A stretch of 64,000 bases of DNA from an uncultured Ruthenibacterium sp. (GTDB lineage: Bacteria; Bacillota; Clostridia; Oscillospirales; Ruminococcaceae). Below, one piece after another: positions 41,786 to 48,735 of this stretch. Under the pieces are notes generated by a model that made no database searches, was not told where the DNA came from, and saw only the letters and a list, made by a program, of their open reading frames with translations. Every line of letters starts with the position of its first letter. Positions within the stretch are counted from its first letter, which is position 1. The position numbers and the translations under genes are program-made. The stretch is from the NCBI GenBank assembly GCA_944386565.1, contig CALXBO010000001.1, forward strand, positions 1 through 64,000, read 5' to 3'.

Positions 41786-41835
41786 AAAAGAGCGTTTTCA
41801 CACCGGAGAGAAGTCCGGTTGAAAACGCTCTTTTA
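41786..41835. terminator. Bidirectional terminator between DUF3006 gene and C39 peptidase
   Basis: A long stem AAAAGAGCGTTTTCA with its complement, extended by ACCGG/CCGGT, with A- and T-runs at the base. Confidence 0.9.
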
Positions 41836-42651
41836 TTCTGTGTCGGAAACATTGTCCGGTGCGCGGTCCAATACGACGGCGCGCTCGCCCATCTCCTGAT
41901 AGCGCTGCGCAAACACGCTGGCACGGACGACAATGCGTCCCACGAGAGGATCGCACAGATACGCGGAGATCCCGTCGAACCCCGTCAGCACAAGGCAGTG
42001 GAGATTCGAATACGGATGGATCTCCTCGCCCTCCGGAGTCATCCACCAGAACTCCGTGAACTCGGGTTCGGCAAAATGGATCGTCGCCCACACAATGACG
42101 GGCTGACCGTTCTGCACGAAATTTACAAGATCGGTCAGGGATGAGCCGGTTGCGTCGACGGCCGTATAGTCGGACTCCATCGTTTTCAGATAGGCGTTGG
42201 CCGCGTCGACGATCGGCCCGGTAAAACAGTAGAACGCGTAGTGTTCGCTGAACGGATCTCCGGCATAGGCGTCTTCGGGGTCCGGCGCAATGGCGATGTT
42301 GCCGTCGAACGTGAATTCTTCATAGGGAAGATAGCGCACGGCCATTTCTTCCTTGTCAACGTCAAAACCGTAGTAATTCAGAACGGTCGTCAGGCTCGTG
42401 ATCTCACATCCGTTCGGAAGTTCCGGAAGCTGCAGAACGGGTTTTACGGCGAGGCGTGTGCTCTCGAGATAAAGATCCGACGGAAACGTCAGCGCGGGAG
42501 GTTCGACTACGGATTTCTGGACGGGAACGACGAGCGGCGAGGACGCGGAAGCCTTTGCGATCTTTTCCATCGGCAGCTGAAACAGACATACGACTACAGA
42601 GCATGTCAAAAGACCGGCAGCGCCGGCAAATAAAAGTTTTTTCCGATCCAA
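41833..42651 (-). CDS. C39-type (papain-like) peptidase domain protein, exported
   Basis: 272 residues. An N-terminal hydrophobic helix (about 5-25) is a signal anchor or signal peptide. The peptidase_C39_2 domain shows the oxyanion Gln in VLQLPELPNGCEIT, the nucleophile Cys in the same stretch followed by SLTTVLNYYGF, and the catalytic His in YSNLHCLVLTGFDG. The start appears to be TTG at 42651, with GAGGGGCGG about 13 nt upstream; an ATG at codon 28 would delete the signal. It is divergent from the blaI operon and might cut a cell-wall or secreted substrate. Confidence 0.82.
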   Translation of the reverse strand: MDRKKLLFAGAAGLLTCSVVVCLFQLPMEKIAKASASSPLVVPVQKSVVEPPALTFPSDLYLESTRLAVKPVLQLPELPNGCEITSLTTVLNYYGFDVDKEEMAVRYLPYEEFTFDGNIAIAPDPEDAYAGDPFSEHYAFYCFTGPIVDAANAYLKTMESDYTAVDATGSSLTDLVNFVQNGQPVIVWATIHFAEPEFTEFWWMTPEGEEIHPYSNLHCLVLTGFDGISAYLCDPLVGRIVVRASVFAQRYQEMGERAVVLDRAPDNVSDTE

Positions 42652-42752: not shown

Positions 42753-42781
42753 TTGACAGAGAAATTCGACAAATGTAAAAT
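42753..42781 (+). promoter_or_regulatory. Promoter of the blaI-M56-lipoprotein operon
   Basis: Perfect TTGACA, 17-bp spacer, TAAAAT. Operator-like dyads overlap the spacer/-10 and lie just after the start of transcription (near 42788). Confidence 0.85.
42764..42781. promoter_or_regulatory. BlaI-type operator 1
   Basis: ATTCGACAAATGTAAAAT: an imperfect 18-bp dyad with the ACA-NN-TGT core seen in BlaI/MecI operators, lying between -35 and -10. Confidence 0.6.
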
Positions 42782-42795
42782 GAAATTGAAAAGAG

Positions 42796-42813
42796 ATTCA
42801 ACAAATGTCGAAT
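42796..42813. promoter_or_regulatory. BlaI-type operator 2
   Basis: ATTCAACAAATGTCGAAT: a dyad with one mismatch and the same ACA-NN-TGT core, 32 bp (three helical turns) from operator 1, just downstream of the transcription start. Confidence 0.65.
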
Positions 42814-42831: not shown

Positions 42832-43224
42832 ATGGCTCAGATCAAACGGCTGCCGGATGCAGAGCTTCGGGTGATGCAGGCATTGTGGCAGGCGCAGGGA
42901 GAAGCGACGCGTCCCGAACTGGATGAACTGCTGCGGCAGGACACGGACTGGAGCGCCACAACGGTGCTCAATCTGCTGGCGCGGTTGGAAACACGGGGCT
43001 TTGTGACGCGGGAAAAATGCGGCAGGGGATACCGGTACCGGGCGCTGGTCACACAGGAACAGTACCGGCAGGAGGAATCGCAGTCCGTTCTGACGCGGCT
43101 GTTCGGCGGCAGCGTCAAGCAGTTTGTCGCAGCGCTCGACGGCGGCAACGCGCTGTCGAAGAGTGATGTGGAGGAACTCAGTGCCTATCTGGACGAACTC
43201 CAGAAGAGGGGGGACGGAAGATGA
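42832..43224 (+). CDS. BlaI/MecI family transcriptional repressor
   Basis: 130 residues. The N-terminal winged helix has LPDAELRVMQALW and WSATTVLNLLARLETRGFVTREK; the C-terminal helices dimerise (QSVLTRLFGGSVKQFV). A cleavage site between these parts, as in BlaI, is plausible. CGGAGG stands 8 nt before ATG 42832. Its stop overlaps the M56 gene start (ATGA). It probably represses its own operon through the two dyads upstream. Confidence 0.93.
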   Translation: MAQIKRLPDAELRVMQALWQAQGEATRPELDELLRQDTDWSATTVLNLLARLETRGFVTREKCGRGYRYRALVTQEQYRQEESQSVLTRLFGGSVKQFVAALDGGNALSKSDVEELSAYLDELQKRGDGR

Positions 43225-46200
43225 CATGGCTGTTTGACGCACTGTGGACGAGCGTCTGCTGCGGAGCGGCGGCTGTTCTTCTCACACTGCTCACGCCGCT
43301 TTTGCAAAAGCGGTATTCGGCGCGCATGCGCTGCTGGGTCTGGATTGCCATTGCGGTGTTCCTGCTTGTTCCGGTGCGCCCGGACTTTGGTGCGGCGCCC
43401 ATCAAGGTGAACGTCCCCGAGACATTTACACGGACGATCACACTCCGGCAGCCACAGTCTTTCTCTGCGCCGCAGAGCGGCGTGCAGACAGCGGCGCCGC
43501 AGAGCGGGGAATCCGCCGCAGCGGAACCGGAGACTCCCGTGACAAATGAGACGCAGGCAGCGCAGGAGTCGCCCGTCGGCGGTGAGTCCGCTGACCAGAC
43601 GACCCAGCCGCAGACCGGGAACGTGCAGAATACCGTCACGCAGCAAACGCCGGATACGGCGCCTGCGGGCGGCGATTCCGCTCAGGATGCGGATGCGCCT
43701 TCGCAGACGGAGGCAAAGCCTTCCGCGCGCCCGGCCGTTTCCATTACGCTCGGACAGGCTGTGCTGGCCGTCTGGGCGATAGGGGCTCTGGTGCTGGCGC
43801 TCGCGCGCACGCTTCCTTACCTCTTGTGGAAACGCCGCGTTCTGCGGCGCAGCCGGCCTTTGACCAATCCGGCGCTGCGCTCCTACTGCGCACAGGCAAA
43901 GCGGCGCACGGGCTGCAAGGCGCGCGTGACGGTGCGCGTCTCGGCCGACGCCGACACGCCGATGGTCGTGGGCGCGCTGCGTCCCGTTTTGCTGCTCCCG
44001 CCCGGGCTCGCTGCCGACAACACCACCGCGCTGATGCTGGTACACGAATACATGCATGTGCGCCGGCGTGACGTTCTGGCCAAATCGGTTGTGTTTGCAG
44101 CTGCGTGCGTGCACTGGTTCAACCCGGCGGTCTATCTGATGCTGCACGGCATCTCGCGCGACGCAGAACTCGCGTGCGACGAGGCCGTTCTGACGCTGTG
44201 CGGTGAGCAGTACCGCGGCGTATACGGCCGCGCGCTCGTGGCGGGCGTCGGCAAGCGCGCCGCGTTCACCACCCAGTTCGGCGGAGGAAAAAGAGCCGTG
44301 AAGCAGCGCCTGGAAGCGCTGTTTCTGGGCGTGCGCCGCCGCGGAGTTCTGACGGCGGCGGCTCTGGTGGCGGTTGTGGCATGTGCTACGGTGCTTGTTG
44401 CCTGCCAGACCGGACAGACGGGAAAAGGCGGGGCGAGCGCGATGGTTTCAAGGCCGCTGGACACCGCCATCCCCGTCGCACAGACGGAGATCCCGACTGT
44501 CAGCTTCCCGCTGGAAATGTGGGAGGTGGAGGGCGATTCGTCCTTCATGTATGAAGGCGAAATCTATGAGCAGGGATACGGCACCTATCTGACTCTGCAA
44601 ACGGCAGATGGCGTCTCGCTTCTCACGCCGGTGCGCCGCAGCGATGTGGACGATTCCCGGATGGATTACGACGGAACGCTCCCGGAAAACGCGCTCGTCG
44701 TCTGGGTCGGGAACGGTGTTCTGAATGCGGCCGTCACAGAGGACGGAGAGAACTGGGCGCAGACGGTGATCGCTGATATTCCCGGTGCGGAGAACGTCAA
44801 ATGCAGCCGTGTAGACGCCGACACGATGTATGCGGCCGTGCAGGCGGGAGGAACGACGACGATCTACCGGACGGACGACAGCGGAGCATCGTGGAGGCAA
44901 GCGGGAAGCCGTGTGGAACACGCACTCGTAGAGATTTACTTTTTCGAGTCGGACGCAGGCGTATTTTGCGCGGCTGAGAGAGGCGATACAGGTCCGATCG
45001 TCCTGTACACATCCGACGGCGGAAACACGTGGACCGAGTCACAGACACCTGATATGACGCAGGCGTTTGATATGACACGGGTACGTGCTCTGCGGGCGAA
45101 GATGCAGGATGGAACGCTGTATCTCCAAACCGAATCGCGCTACAAGGAGGAAATTCCCGACGAGGGCGAACAGTACGGTTCATTCATTTATATTCTGGAG
45201 AGCACGGACGGCGGCGCGTCATGGAATTACCGGCCCCGTTCCGAAGAACTCCGCCGCGCGCTCACCAATGTGGCGGCAAACCGGATGGAGCTGTATAGCA
45301 CGATGTATTCCGACACGCTGGTCGACAGCACATGGAACAGCGACGGCAGTGTGACCTACTATGTTACGGAGGGCGCGCAGGTGCCGTCCCTGCTGAACCG
45401 GGGCGCAGTTGTTGCGTGGACCGGAAACGGCGAGGTGGAGATTCGTGTAGAAGAAACAGAGTACAACCGTGAGACAACAGTCCGGTACAGCGGCCTGTCG
45501 GATGTGACTGTCTCGGTGGGGGATGTCGTGGCGAGCTCGGCGGAGATCGGAACGGCCGGCGCCTCCGAACGCGCGGGAACCGGTTCTTACAGCGTGACGT
45601 TCTCCAGCGGGGGTCAGGGTGTGTCCATGTACGATGTGGGCTCTCTGAGCAATGTGAACAAGAAATCCCCGCCGCTGTGTGAAGTTCCCGAAGAGCTGCG
45701 CGAATACGCCGAACGCGCGGGCGGAAACCGCGCGGCGGTGGCCTACACGCTGGCGAATGCGCTGCTGCAGGGCGATGAAAACGCCGTGGACAATCTCGTG
45801 TTCGGCCAGTATGCACAGTCCCACTCGTTTGACAGCGCATTCGGCCAAGACGCCTATGCGCTTGAGTCGCTCGAGGGCTTTGCATGCACCGGAGCGTGGA
45901 TCGACGTGGAAGGTGAGGGCGAAGATGCTCGCGTTCTGCTGACGCTGGAAGTGGAAAATGCGGGAGCGACGGGGCTCATGGAAGGGTTGAACGTCTATGT
46001 GGTCGAATCCCGGGCGGATTCTTCCGATTCCGCCTGGCCCGCTGATACCGTGTGTACGCTGATGCCGATCTCCTACGAGGACACCACTTCCGATCTGAGC
46101 GAAGAGTTGCAGCAGGCCGTGGAAATGGTGCGCGAGTGGCGTACCTGGTGTTCAAGAGAGGCGTTCAGCGAACTGAACGCGGAGGATCTGCCGTATCAGA

Positions 46201-47108
46201 CGGAGATTTACCTTGCCCTGATGGACCGGTATGTGACCGGAAAAACCGAGTGGAGCAGAGAGGACATCTCCGTCCTTGCGGCGAAGTATCTCGGTGTGGA
46301 AGGATATGTTCCGTCCGAGAGCAACGGCCCGCTTTCGTACAACGCGCAGAGCGGGATGTACACCATACCGGAGATCGGAGCCGGCGTCGATTTGACAGTC
46401 ACGAGCTGGGATGCCGTCGAGACGGAAAACGGTGCGCAGGTGATCTGCACGCTGTTTGCCGACGGCCTCGGATGTGTTCCGTCGTACCGCTACATTTATG
46501 AACTGGAGGCAAACGAAGGCGGTTTTGCGCTGCGTTCGTGCAGCGTGGAGTCCGTGTCGAAGCTGTACTTCCCGGAAGTCCCCGTGACGGGTGAAGCGCT
46601 CTCCGACGACCGCGCGCGCAGCGTGTGCCGTTCGGTGCTGGACAATGCGCAGCAGCTTCGCGCGTGGATGTTTGGTACAGCCCGCCGTGTGGACGAGACG
46701 GACACCGTGCAGCGTGTGCAGGACGGTGTGAGCGTCGCATACGGCCGCTCGCTCGATTTCGACACGCCGGAAGAGTGCGCAGAGTCTCTCGGAAACGTGA
46801 TTTCGGCAACCGATCCGCTGAGCCTGACCGGCACGGCGACGCGTATCTCGGACGGCCAGCCGTTCGAAATCTCCCTGTGCACGGAGGAAAACGGAAAGCT
46901 GTACACCGCGCAGGCGTATTGCATCGACCCGTATCAGGCGATTGACACGCAGGCGGTCAAGCTGGATTATGTCTCCGACGAAAAAATTACGTTTACCGTC
47001 CCCGCGACGCTGCAAAGCGGCGAGAGCGTGACGGTGCATTATACCGTCCTGGCTGAGGACGGGCGGTGGGTTCTGGAATCTCTGTCCGGAACCGTGGAAA
47101 GCAGGTGA
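43221..47108 (+). CDS. Giant BlaR1-like M56 membrane metalloprotease with extracellular Asp-box sensor region
   Basis: 1295 residues, about twice the BlaR1 length. TM1 and TM2 (about 5-28, 38-52), an extracellular Pro/Gln/Glu-rich loop (about 82-175), TM3 (about 178-200), then the cytosolic zinc protease with HEYMH at 275-279 and ELACDEA near 316-322, and TM4 (about 378-396). The remaining 880 residues should be outside. They open with four Asp-box (BNR) motifs: VTEDGENW 505-512 (degenerate), TDDSGASW 551-558, TSDGGNTW 597-604, STDGGASW 661-668, suggesting a beta-propeller-like part. The rest (about 740-1295) is unrecognised. No penicillin-binding SxxK/KTG domain is evident. It probably relays an outside signal by cutting the BlaI repressor. 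Confidence 0.85.
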   Translation: MTWLFDALWTSVCCGAAAVLLTLLTPLLQKRYSARMRCWVWIAIAVFLLVPVRPDFGAAPIKVNVPETFTRTITLRQPQSFSAPQSGVQTAAPQSGESAAAEPETPVTNETQAAQESPVGGESADQTTQPQTGNVQNTVTQQTPDTAPAGGDSAQDADAPSQTEAKPSARPAVSITLGQAVLAVWAIGALVLALARTLPYLLWKRRVLRRSRPLTNPALRSYCAQAKRRTGCKARVTVRVSADADTPMVVGALRPVLLLPPGLAADNTTALMLVHEYMHVRRRDVLAKSVVFAAACVHWFNPAVYLMLHGISRDAELACDEAVLTLCGEQYRGVYGRALVAGVGKRAAFTTQFGGGKRAVKQRLEALFLGVRRRGVLTAAALVAVVACATVLVACQTGQTGKGGASAMVSRPLDTAIPVAQTEIPTVSFPLEMWEVEGDSSFMYEGEIYEQGYGTYLTLQTADGVSLLTPVRRSDVDDSRMDYDGTLPENALVVWVGNGVLNAAVTEDGENWAQTVIADIPGAENVKCSRVDADTMYAAVQAGGTTTIYRTDDSGASWRQAGSRVEHALVEIYFFESDAGVFCAAERGDTGPIVLYTSDGGNTWTESQTPDMTQAFDMTRVRALRAKMQDGTLYLQTESRYKEEIPDEGEQYGSFIYILESTDGGASWNYRPRSEELRRALTNVAANRMELYSTMYSDTLVDSTWNSDGSVTYYVTEGAQVPSLLNRGAVVAWTGNGEVEIRVEETEYNRETTVRYSGLSDVTVSVGDVVASSAEIGTAGASERAGTGSYSVTFSSGGQGVSMYDVGSLSNVNKKSPPLCEVPEELREYAERAGGNRAAVAYTLANALLQGDENAVDNLVFGQYAQSHSFDSAFGQDAYALESLEGFACTGAWIDVEGEGEDARVLLTLEVENAGATGLMEGLNVYVVESRADSSDSAWPADTVCTLMPISYEDTTSDLSEELQQAVEMVREWRTWCSREAFSELNAEDLPYQTEIYLALMDRYVTGKTEWSREDISVLAAKYLGVEGYVPSESNGPLSYNAQSGMYTIPEIGAGVDLTVTSWDAVETENGAQVICTLFADGLGCVPSYRYIYELEANEGGFALRSCSVESVSKLYFPEVPVTGEALSDDRARSVCRSVLDNAQQLRAWMFGTARRVDETDTVQRVQDGVSVAYGRSLDFDTPEECAESLGNVISATDPLSLTGTATRISDGQPFEISLCTEENGKLYTAQAYCIDPYQAIDTQAVKLDYVSDEKITFTVPATLQSGESVTVHYTVLAEDGRWVLESLSGTVESR

Positions 47109-47112
47109 AACC

Positions 47113-48735
47113 ATGAAACAGAAACTGGCCTTGCTGTGCGCGGCGGCGCTCCTCCTGTCCGCCTGCGCGCAGAGCGCAGGACAGCCCGGAGCAGACGTTT
47201 CCGGGGCGGAATCCGGAGCGTCTGCTCCGGCCGACGGCGTGTACGAAAATTGCCGCATCCTGACGATGCAGCAGGCGCAGGACGCGCCGTATCTGAGCGA
47301 TCAGATCGAGATGATACAGTCGATGCGCGAGCAGTACAGTGCCGCCGAGGTGCGTTATATGAACCTCGCGGGGAATGTCTCGGAAGAGTCCCTCAGGGAG
47401 ACGCTCGGGACACTGCGGCTCTCTGACGCGGTGTACGATTCGTCCGGTGAGAATGTGTTGCCGTCCGGTGCGGTGTGTACGATCGAATGGAATATCCCGG
47501 ATGATTTGACGCATGTGACGGTTCAGGACGGTTCCGGCGGAACCGTGCTTGAAGTGGAACAGCAAGCGGACGGAACCACACAGGTCGTGGCAATTTCGGT
47601 CAATCTCACAAACGAGGAGTGCGGGTCGCTCGCATTTACCGCGCGCATGCTGGTGCAGAACCGGTACGCCGCATCGGGCAGCCGCGCGCCGTTTTCCGTG
47701 CAGGCGACGCCCGCCCAAGTGTCCGGCGACCAGATGAGCGACGACGAGGTGCTCGAAATGATCCGCTCCGTGAGCGCCTCTGTGAGCCGTCTGTGGGAGT
47801 GGGAGCGGGACAGCGGATACGTGCTGATGGATCTGACAAGCCCCGAACAGGGAATCGTGATGGAGTGCCGGTACAATAATGATACCGATCCGTCGTACAG
47901 CCTGTACCTTCCGTCCCTGAGTTTTGACACGGCGCAGGCATATCAGGACACAAGGGACGACGTTCTTCTGCGCACGACGCCAGAGGCGGATTATTACCCG
48001 CCGTTCTGCACTTGGGACGGGAAACTGTGGGTCACGGTAAATCAGCCGGGAATCGGCGGAAGCTACGGTATCCGGCCCGAGAAAATCGACATCGTCTCAA
48101 AGGAGCCGGAGCGCATCGTTGCGGACATCTGGCAGAAGTACAACGGTTACAACATCAGCGCCATCCCGCTGTACAGCACGCGGTACGAATTTACCGTGCA
48201 GGACGGAAACTGGGTGGCGGACAGCCTGTACGGCACAACGGATGAAGAGAGCTACAACGTTGCGGTCAATGCATGGGACGCGTGGTTCAATGAACACTAT
48301 GCGCAGTTCTACTTTGCAGACGGCGGCACGGAAGCAGACCTCGGCACACTGTGGGAGTCGCTCGGCGCGGGGCAGGGAAGCTGGAGCGGTACGGAAGAGG
48401 GAGAGTGGAATGAAAACGCGATCCTCGTGTCGCCCGGATTCGCGTTTTCCGTGCGGGACGGCAAGTACGCCGTCTCGCTGTACAGCACGCTCGGCTCGGG
48501 GGCAACGACATTCTTTGCAAACAGCGCTCTGACGGACGGTCAGGGAAATTACATCGTGACGTTCGGCAGTTTTGCCGGCGAAGTGATGGAGGAAGAGACG
48601 TATTCCGAAAACAGCCGCCCGCAGCTCTGGATCGAAACGGGTACGGAGGGCGACGGGCTGATCGAGATCGCCGGACAGAGAATTTCACAGCTGGACGGCT
48701 GGATGTACGAGTATCAGTTCACGGCGTCTTCCTGA
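47113..48735 (+). CDS. Large lipoprotein of unknown function in the BlaI-M56 operon
   Basis: 540 residues. A signal peptide ends in the lipobox LLSAC (Cys at 18), followed by an Ala/Gly/Ser-rich linker. The mature part is beta-rich with many aromatic and acidic residues and resembles no family I know. Near residue 370, YEFTVQDGNWVADSLYGT echoes the M56 C-terminal HYTVLAEDGRWVLESLSGT, which suggests a shared module. It starts 4 nt after the M56 stop and so is cotranscribed; it may be a co-sensor or the effector of the system. Confidence 0.75.
   Translation: MKQKLALLCAAALLLSACAQSAGQPGADVSGAESGASAPADGVYENCRILTMQQAQDAPYLSDQIEMIQSMREQYSAAEVRYMNLAGNVSEESLRETLGTLRLSDAVYDSSGENVLPSGAVCTIEWNIPDDLTHVTVQDGSGGTVLEVEQQADGTTQVVAISVNLTNEECGSLAFTARMLVQNRYAASGSRAPFSVQATPAQVSGDQMSDDEVLEMIRSVSASVSRLWEWERDSGYVLMDLTSPEQGIVMECRYNNDTDPSYSLYLPSLSFDTAQAYQDTRDDVLLRTTPEADYYPPFCTWDGKLWVTVNQPGIGGSYGIRPEKIDIVSKEPERIVADIWQKYNGYNISAIPLYSTRYEFTVQDGNWVADSLYGTTDEESYNVAVNAWDAWFNEHYAQFYFADGGTEADLGTLWESLGAGQGSWSGTEEGEWNENAILVSPGFAFSVRDGKYAVSLYSTLGSGATTFFANSALTDGQGNYIVTFGSFAGEVMEEETYSENSRPQLWIETGTEGDGLIEIAGQRISQLDGWMYEYQFTASS

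Follow-up and report, generated by a model that had tools for sequence, protein, structure and literature searches.

What does a BlaR1-type protease sense when its outer part is not a penicillin-binding domain? Almost all that is known of BlaR1 concerns its role as the antibiotic sensor in inducible beta-lactamase and methicillin resistance, and clostridial genomes encode numerous M56 proteins whose outer domains are unexplored. In a stretch of 64,000 nucleotides from an uncultured Ruthenibacterium sp. (assembly GCA_944386565.1, contig CALXBO010000001.1), here called the window, a gene for a BlaR1-like M56 sensor-protease was identified, which lies in an operon with the genes for a BlaI/MecI-family repressor and a lipoprotein (Table 1). 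An even chance is given to the reading that this operon forms a BlaR1-like relay, which senses the state of cell-wall hydrolysis and induces its own IseA-like lipoprotein partner.

The reading frame of the M56 protein is open throughout and encodes 1295 residues. Peptidase_M56 (PF05569) was identified at residues 173-366 with an E-value of 3.7e-45 (154.8 bits against a curated cut-off of 31), and the solved BlaR1 chains 8exp and 8exs align over residues 184-389. Four membrane segments were identified, with the C-terminal sensor outside; a fifth hydropathy peak at residues 290-308 falls within the protease domain, and by hydropathy and charge the positive loops at residues 27-38, 200-212 and 366-377 lie on the expected inner side. 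H275, H279 and E316 align with the BlaR1 zinc ligands H201, H205 and E242, and the loop at Q352-F353 aligns with the site between S283 and F284 at which BlaR1 cleaves itself (PMC9834060). On the strength of this homology, the M56 protein is assigned a fourfold passage of the membrane with its zinc protease inside. The BlaR1 topology with HEYMH at residues 275-279, which an earlier note had read from this DNA alone, is thus borne out by hydropathy, by the Pfam match and by the alignment to BlaR1.

The four membrane segments, the gluzincin protease of the HExxH...E type, the self-cleavage loop with Phe at P1', the BlaI-type repressor and the dyad operators are all shared with the BlaR1/MecR1 and BlaI/MecI systems of S. 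aureus and B. licheniformis. However, the window protein has no penicillin-binding sensor. Its ectodomain begins after residue 395 and comprises about 900 residues, close to the 880 estimated in the earlier note, compared to about 250 in BlaR1/MecR1, and is composed of a beta-propeller, a LytM fold, a module at residues 816-1116 and an IseA-like domain. The operon encodes a lipoprotein and not a beta-lactamase, and a lipobox follows segment 4 in place of the signal peptidase I site.

For the propeller, the strict Asp box [ST]xDxGxxW occurs three times in the ectodomain, at residues 551, 597 and 661, compared to 0.017 times expected (20,000 shuffles, maximum 1). A fourth box, placed at residue 505 by the earlier note, in fact spans residues 506-512 (TEDGENW). 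It is non-canonical, yet corresponds to the published short form S/t-X-D/n-X-X-X-W ("s-Asp-box", PMC2716378); moreover, it is invariant in the ortholog and in register with the short form of other Asp-box proteins. In a model of residues 411-1295, with a mean predicted local distance difference test score (pLDDT) of 56, residues 491-615 reached values near 90. The best solved matches by Foldseek were YCF48 (E 4.9e-7), sortilin and sialidases, and a second structure aligner gave Z scores of 10 to 11.6 across residues 436-681, while the Pfam matches to PSII_BNR and Sortilin-Vps10 were weak and under the cut-off. The repeated boxes and the four-stranded blades identify an Asp-box beta-propeller, as the earlier note had supposed; ring closure and blade number are to be read with a model that is confident only over about residues 491-615 and in part to 681. 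The Asp boxes and the blade fold are shared with YCF48/HCF136, Vps10 receptors (sortilin) and sialidases of family GH33. In contrast to these, the window propeller is joined to a membrane protease, and the RIP motif found ahead of the Asp boxes in GH33 sialidases was not identified in the ectodomain.

The propeller makes up only about a third of the ectodomain, so that the sensor is not built on it as a whole, as had been proposed in the earlier note. It is followed by a degenerate LytM domain. In a second model (residues 696-1295, mean pLDDT 59), residues 696-796 reached pLDDT values of 56-85 by blocks of ten and matched DipM (Z 11.5), SpoIIQ (11.2) and EnvC (11.2), with Z scores of 10-11.5 over about 95-109 residues. 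Foldseek matches to single LytM domains had a probability of 1.00 but E-values of 0.004 or weaker. The M23 family PF01551 was the sole Pfam match to this segment in all three homologues, with E-values of 3.9e-4 for the window protein and of 0.1 and 0.031 for the two others. Residues 696-815 contain no histidine, and the catalytic HxxxD and HxH zinc site are absent, so that the domain cannot be an active M23 enzyme. By fold and profile, residues 696-806 are thus a LytM fold that is catalytically dead. The fold is the one present in EnvC, DipM and SpoIIQ, which are degenerate LytM regulators; the window domain differs in its location within a receptor ectodomain and in the lack of any histidine.

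The C-terminal residues, about 1123-1293, matched IseA in the model with Z scores of 10.7-11.0 over 143-148 residues, which is nearly all of IseA. Profile-profile comparison to members of PF16800 gave an E-value of 1.2e-8, and 7e-12 with more relatives, compared to 0.3 to 0.95 for reversed-sequence controls (E-values of single comparisons). Fold and profile together show an IseA-like domain. Between the LytM and IseA-like parts, the 816-1116 module, which is common to other M56 proteins and lipoproteins, had no confident fold in the model, and weak Foldseek matches to NTF2-like folds were not used. IseA (YoeB) of B. subtilis is a small secreted inhibitor of the DL-endopeptidases LytE and CwlO. 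Here, its counterparts are a receptor domain and a lipoprotein domain, for which inhibition is putative.

The lipoprotein gene of the operon encodes this second IseA-like domain. Residues 203-377 of the lipoprotein are homologous to the C-terminal domain of the M56 protein (BLASTP E 0.003; profile-profile E 2e-6). An ortholog of the lipoprotein adjoins the M56 gene in a related genome, G203, and in another, G202, the M56 protein itself terminates in the lipoprotein homologue (E 1e-36). Free-standing IseA-like proteins of the family mostly carry N-terminal lipoboxes.

The operon also has the features of a BlaI/MecI regulatory unit, with blaI next to the M56 gene and a common promoter that contains BlaI-type operators. 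The repressor matched MecI structures with an E-value of 2e-11. The list of open reading frames gives its start at position 42805; the ATG at 42832, after a GGAGG, is the more likely start, and an ortholog of 81% identity begins at the corresponding position. The promoter TTGACA-N17-TAAAAT is identical at the ortholog locus in G203, and a third species has TTGACA-N17-TACAAT. In a scan of the 2.4-Mb genome, the operator TTCAACAAATGTCGAA was the best match of all and is kept in two other species; TTCGACAAATGTAAAA was among the best matches, tied with two other sites at two mismatches, and is kept in the ortholog locus. The canonical box TACANNTGTA is not present in the window, the actual form of the operator being GACA-NN-TGTC. 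Genomic sites outside this promoter with three mismatches did not exceed a reversed control, and a wider regulon is therefore not proposed.

Table 1. Position of the identified features in the window (residue numbers refer to the respective protein).
Feature	Position	Strand	Residues, basis or remarks
C39-like (papain-type) peptidase gene, divergent from blaI	41833..42651	-	PF13529, E 9.8e-28
Sigma-70-type promoter of the operon	TTGACA 42753-42758, 17-base spacer, TAAAAT 42776-42781	+	read from sequence
BlaI-type operator TTCGACAAATGTAAAA	42765..42780		between -35 and -10; 2 mismatches to TTCGACA-NN-TGTCGAA
BlaI-type operator TTCAACAAATGTCGAA	42797..42812		1 mismatch to TTCGACA-NN-TGTCGAA
BlaI/MecI-family repressor gene	42832..43224	+	Penicillinase_R PF03965, E 2.3e-29
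M56 sensor-protease gene	43221..47108	+	1295 residues; start overlaps the blaI stop
Membrane segments 1 and 2	43248..43376	+	10-28, 34-52; hydropathy
Outer loop EL1	43395..43736	+	59-172; start conserved, then rich in Ala/Gln/Thr/Pro
Membrane segment 3	43749..43805	+	177-195; hydropathy
HEYMH zinc site	44043..44057	+	275-279; alignment to BlaR1 chains
Membrane segment 4	44346..44405	+	376-394, closing in lipobox L392-V-A-C395
Asp-box beta-propeller region	44508..45290	+	about 430-690
Short Asp box TEDGENW	44736..44756	+	506-512
Asp box TDDSGASW	44871..44894	+	551-558
Asp box TSDGGNTW	45009..45032	+	597-604
Asp box STDGGASW	45201..45224	+	661-668
Degenerate LytM/M23 domain	45306..45638	+	696-806; PF01551 and model match
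Alpha/beta module without family assignment	45666..46568	+	816-1116
IseA-like domain of the M56 protein	46587..47099	+	about 1123-1293
Lipoprotein gene	47113..48735	+	4 bases downstream of the M56 stop; lipobox LLSAC
IseA-like domain of the lipoprotein	47719..48243	+	203-377

For the proposed relay, the operators and the promoter suggest that BlaI represses the promoter of its own operon. The outer domains would then encounter their target, for which a peptidoglycan hydrolase or a peptide stem cut by one is the likeliest candidate. By analogy to BlaR1, the resulting shift of the ectodomain would free the protease from self-inhibition and lead to the inactivation of BlaI, whereupon the operon, including the IseA-like lipoprotein, would be expressed. 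The lipoprotein in turn may restrain DL-endopeptidases and so close a feedback loop. The outer domains suggest a link to the cell wall, since the dead LytM domain resembles regulators of amidases and the IseA-like domain resembles a blocker of LytE; IseA was shown to block the active site of this enzyme (PMC13204101). As an output, the IseA-like lipoprotein would make sense, since it would supply an inhibitor at times of strong wall cutting. A peptidoglycan dipeptide was reported to bind BlaI/MecI directly (PMC3305447).

Several points weigh against this relay. PF16800 was not listed for the M56 protein or for its C-terminal segment, which places the IseA-like domain under Pfam's curated cut-off, and a sequence/profile search of PDB sequences did not retrieve IseA, so that the link to IseA rests on fold and profile-profile comparison. 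Confidence in both models was modest overall. The full architecture of propeller, LytM, module and IseA-like domain was identified only in the window genome, in G203 and, diverged, in G202, three species of one genus. Just one NlpC/P60 protein was found in the window genome, which leaves few visible targets for a DL-endopeptidase inhibitor. Finally, ligand and target of the outer domains as readers of wall hydrolysis are putative assignments.

The protease, the repressor and each of the outer folds are of known kinds. For the combination of the outer folds, the IseA-bearing operon and the lipobox of segment 4, no description was found in a partial literature search, which is weak evidence. The locus offers a testable signal, the activity of cell-wall hydrolases, and an output, the IseA-like lipoprotein; fusion of a lipoprotein to a protease is a possible way in which such a receptor is assembled. 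If the proposed relay holds true, BlaR1-type relays would be a general device for sensing the envelope, and a new regulator would be added to the wall homeostasis of Gram-positive bacteria.

The assembly of the receptor raises a question of its own. Segment 4, RRRGVLTAAALVAVVACATVLVAC395, resembles a lipoprotein signal peptide, with a positive n-region, a hydrophobic stretch and a lipobox Cys in front of the ectodomain. Of 55 non-redundant M56 proteins gathered from related genomes, 32 have a lipobox-like motif at the end of segment 4, compared to a mean of 10.6 and a maximum of 21 in 1000 shuffles, and such a motif was identified in 1 of the 55 at segment 3 and in 1 at segments 1/2. It is present at segment 4 in 12 of the 13 M56 proteins that contain two or more Asp boxes. 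The window genome encodes both Lgt and LspA. The simplest account of these data would be that the ectodomains were recruited by fusion of lipoprotein genes to the M56 part, and the ectodomain may still be lipidated and cut from its protease. It is possible, though doubtful, that segment 4 acts as a functional lipoprotein signal peptide in a large clostridial clade of BlaR1-type receptors, at which a cut by LspA would separate the membrane protease from a lipid-anchored sensor, which would signal without a covalent link. In the present case, the sensor would be a composite reader of wall hydrolysis, made up of the propeller, the dead LytM and the IseA-like domain, with the IseA-like lipoprotein of the operon feeding back on the hydrolases.

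Somewhat favoured over such processing is the explanation that the lipobox is a coincidence or a relic, and that segment 4 stays whole with the ectodomain covalently joined as in the textbook BlaR1. The proposed relay could stand with this explanation, which bears only on how the receptor is assembled. Lipoprotein processing of internal membrane segments is unusual, which speaks for a relic, and segment 4 comes after a folded cytosolic domain and not after a free N-terminus. Moreover, BlaR1 signalling has been described for the covalently joined protein. However, the excess of the motif at segment 4 over both the shuffled sequences and the other segments argues against this explanation, as does the cut that signal peptidase I makes in BlaR1 of S. 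aureus at the linker corresponding to the end of segment 4 (PMC9834060).

As to the signal, the earlier note had proposed a non-beta-lactam ligand such as a glycan or a wall fragment. The step from Asp boxes to glycans is weak because the boxes have a structural role, and propellers which do not act on carbohydrates, like those of Vps10 receptors, contain them as well (PMC2716378). The wall-related part of the proposal gains support, from the LytM and IseA-like parts and not from the Asp boxes. A glycan receptor, in which the propeller would bind a sugar, for example of mucin or of the wall, with the other domains as spacers and the operon answering host or wall carbohydrate, is regarded as unlikely. 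The propeller does resemble sialidases and lectins, among others, and in compact relatives the ectodomain consists of a propeller alone, so that a propeller can serve as the sensor by itself. However, apart from the structural role of the boxes and the missing RIP motif, no genes for glycan use were identified among the immediate neighbours examined.

Equally improbable is a receptor for protein docking, which would sense a partner protein, possibly the lipoprotein of the operon or the divergent C39 peptidase, and not a wall fragment, with the propeller holding a peptide as in YCF48 and sortilin. These two best folds are both binders of peptides or proteins, a fusion joins lipoprotein and receptor in G202, and the C39 gene keeps its place next to the operon in G203. 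There, the gene order C39-BlaI-M56-lipoprotein is kept, and the M56 proteins are 53% identical. However, a C39 gene was not seen beside the G202 locus, and contact between the ectodomain and a partner protein is purely putative. The promoter region of the C39 gene contains one operator half-site, TTCGACA; the peptidase is a possible second target and might belong to the regulon.

An ordinary BlaR1-type beta-lactam sensor, for which the BlaI partner and the M56 protease would speak, is scarcely credible and was rejected, since the protein scored 97.9 bits against a cut-off of 400 for the BlaR1 equivalog NF000326, no match to a transpeptidase or beta-lactamase family and no KTG motif were identified, and the operon contains no beta-lactamase gene. 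The earlier note had likewise read the outer part as other than a penicillin-binding domain; a penicillin-binding fold did not occur in the fold lists, an absence which alone was not taken as proof.

Relatives of the M56 protein were not identified when genome contigs were scanned with its single sequence. An alignment-based scan then gave two relatives and many Asp-box proteins; in the viral contigs scanned, none were found. The combination of M56 with an Asp-box ectodomain was identified in more than a dozen genomes of the same bacterial family, including the window genome, as well as in five genomes from other families of the Clostridia. When the Asp-box trait is placed on a tree of 59 M56 domains, it changes at least six times, with at least two changes forced by well-supported branches, which implies more than one gain or loss of the pairing. 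The other clostridial proteins of this kind (from G058, G153, G054, G151, G008 and others, and the paralogue on contig C74) share the M56 protease, the lipobox and the Asp-box ectodomain. In contrast to the window protein, they mostly comprise 650-1040 residues with only a propeller outside, in some cases two in tandem, and no LytM part was noticed in their sequences.

The paralogue in the window genome (L041:4597-6693, contig C74) comprises 698 residues and has the lipobox LVAC at segment 4. In G456, a short Asp-box reading frame of 293 residues (L173) begins with an apparent M56 segment 4 and lipobox (MKSGFENIFGAKEKRGGAAVLLAAALAAGVSASFAAC); it is possibly a detached or broken M56 ectodomain. 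IseA (PF16800) was also identified in M56 proteins of G225 (L198, 987 residues) and G044 (L052:2924-7072, 1382 residues), the latter with a match above Pfam's cut-off. The pair of an IseA-like domain and a module of the 816-1116 type occurs as an M56 ectodomain in L061 and as a free lipoprotein in L070 and L071. The loci L049:6222-12002 (G186), L046, L047, L050 and L052 encode M56 proteins that lack Asp boxes and range from about 1400 to more than 1900 residues. The M56 proteins at L044:3685-6774, L045:3674-6745 and L084 have eight Asp boxes and look like two tandem propellers, and at the eight-box loci of G058 and G153 the blaI gene lies downstream, not upstream.

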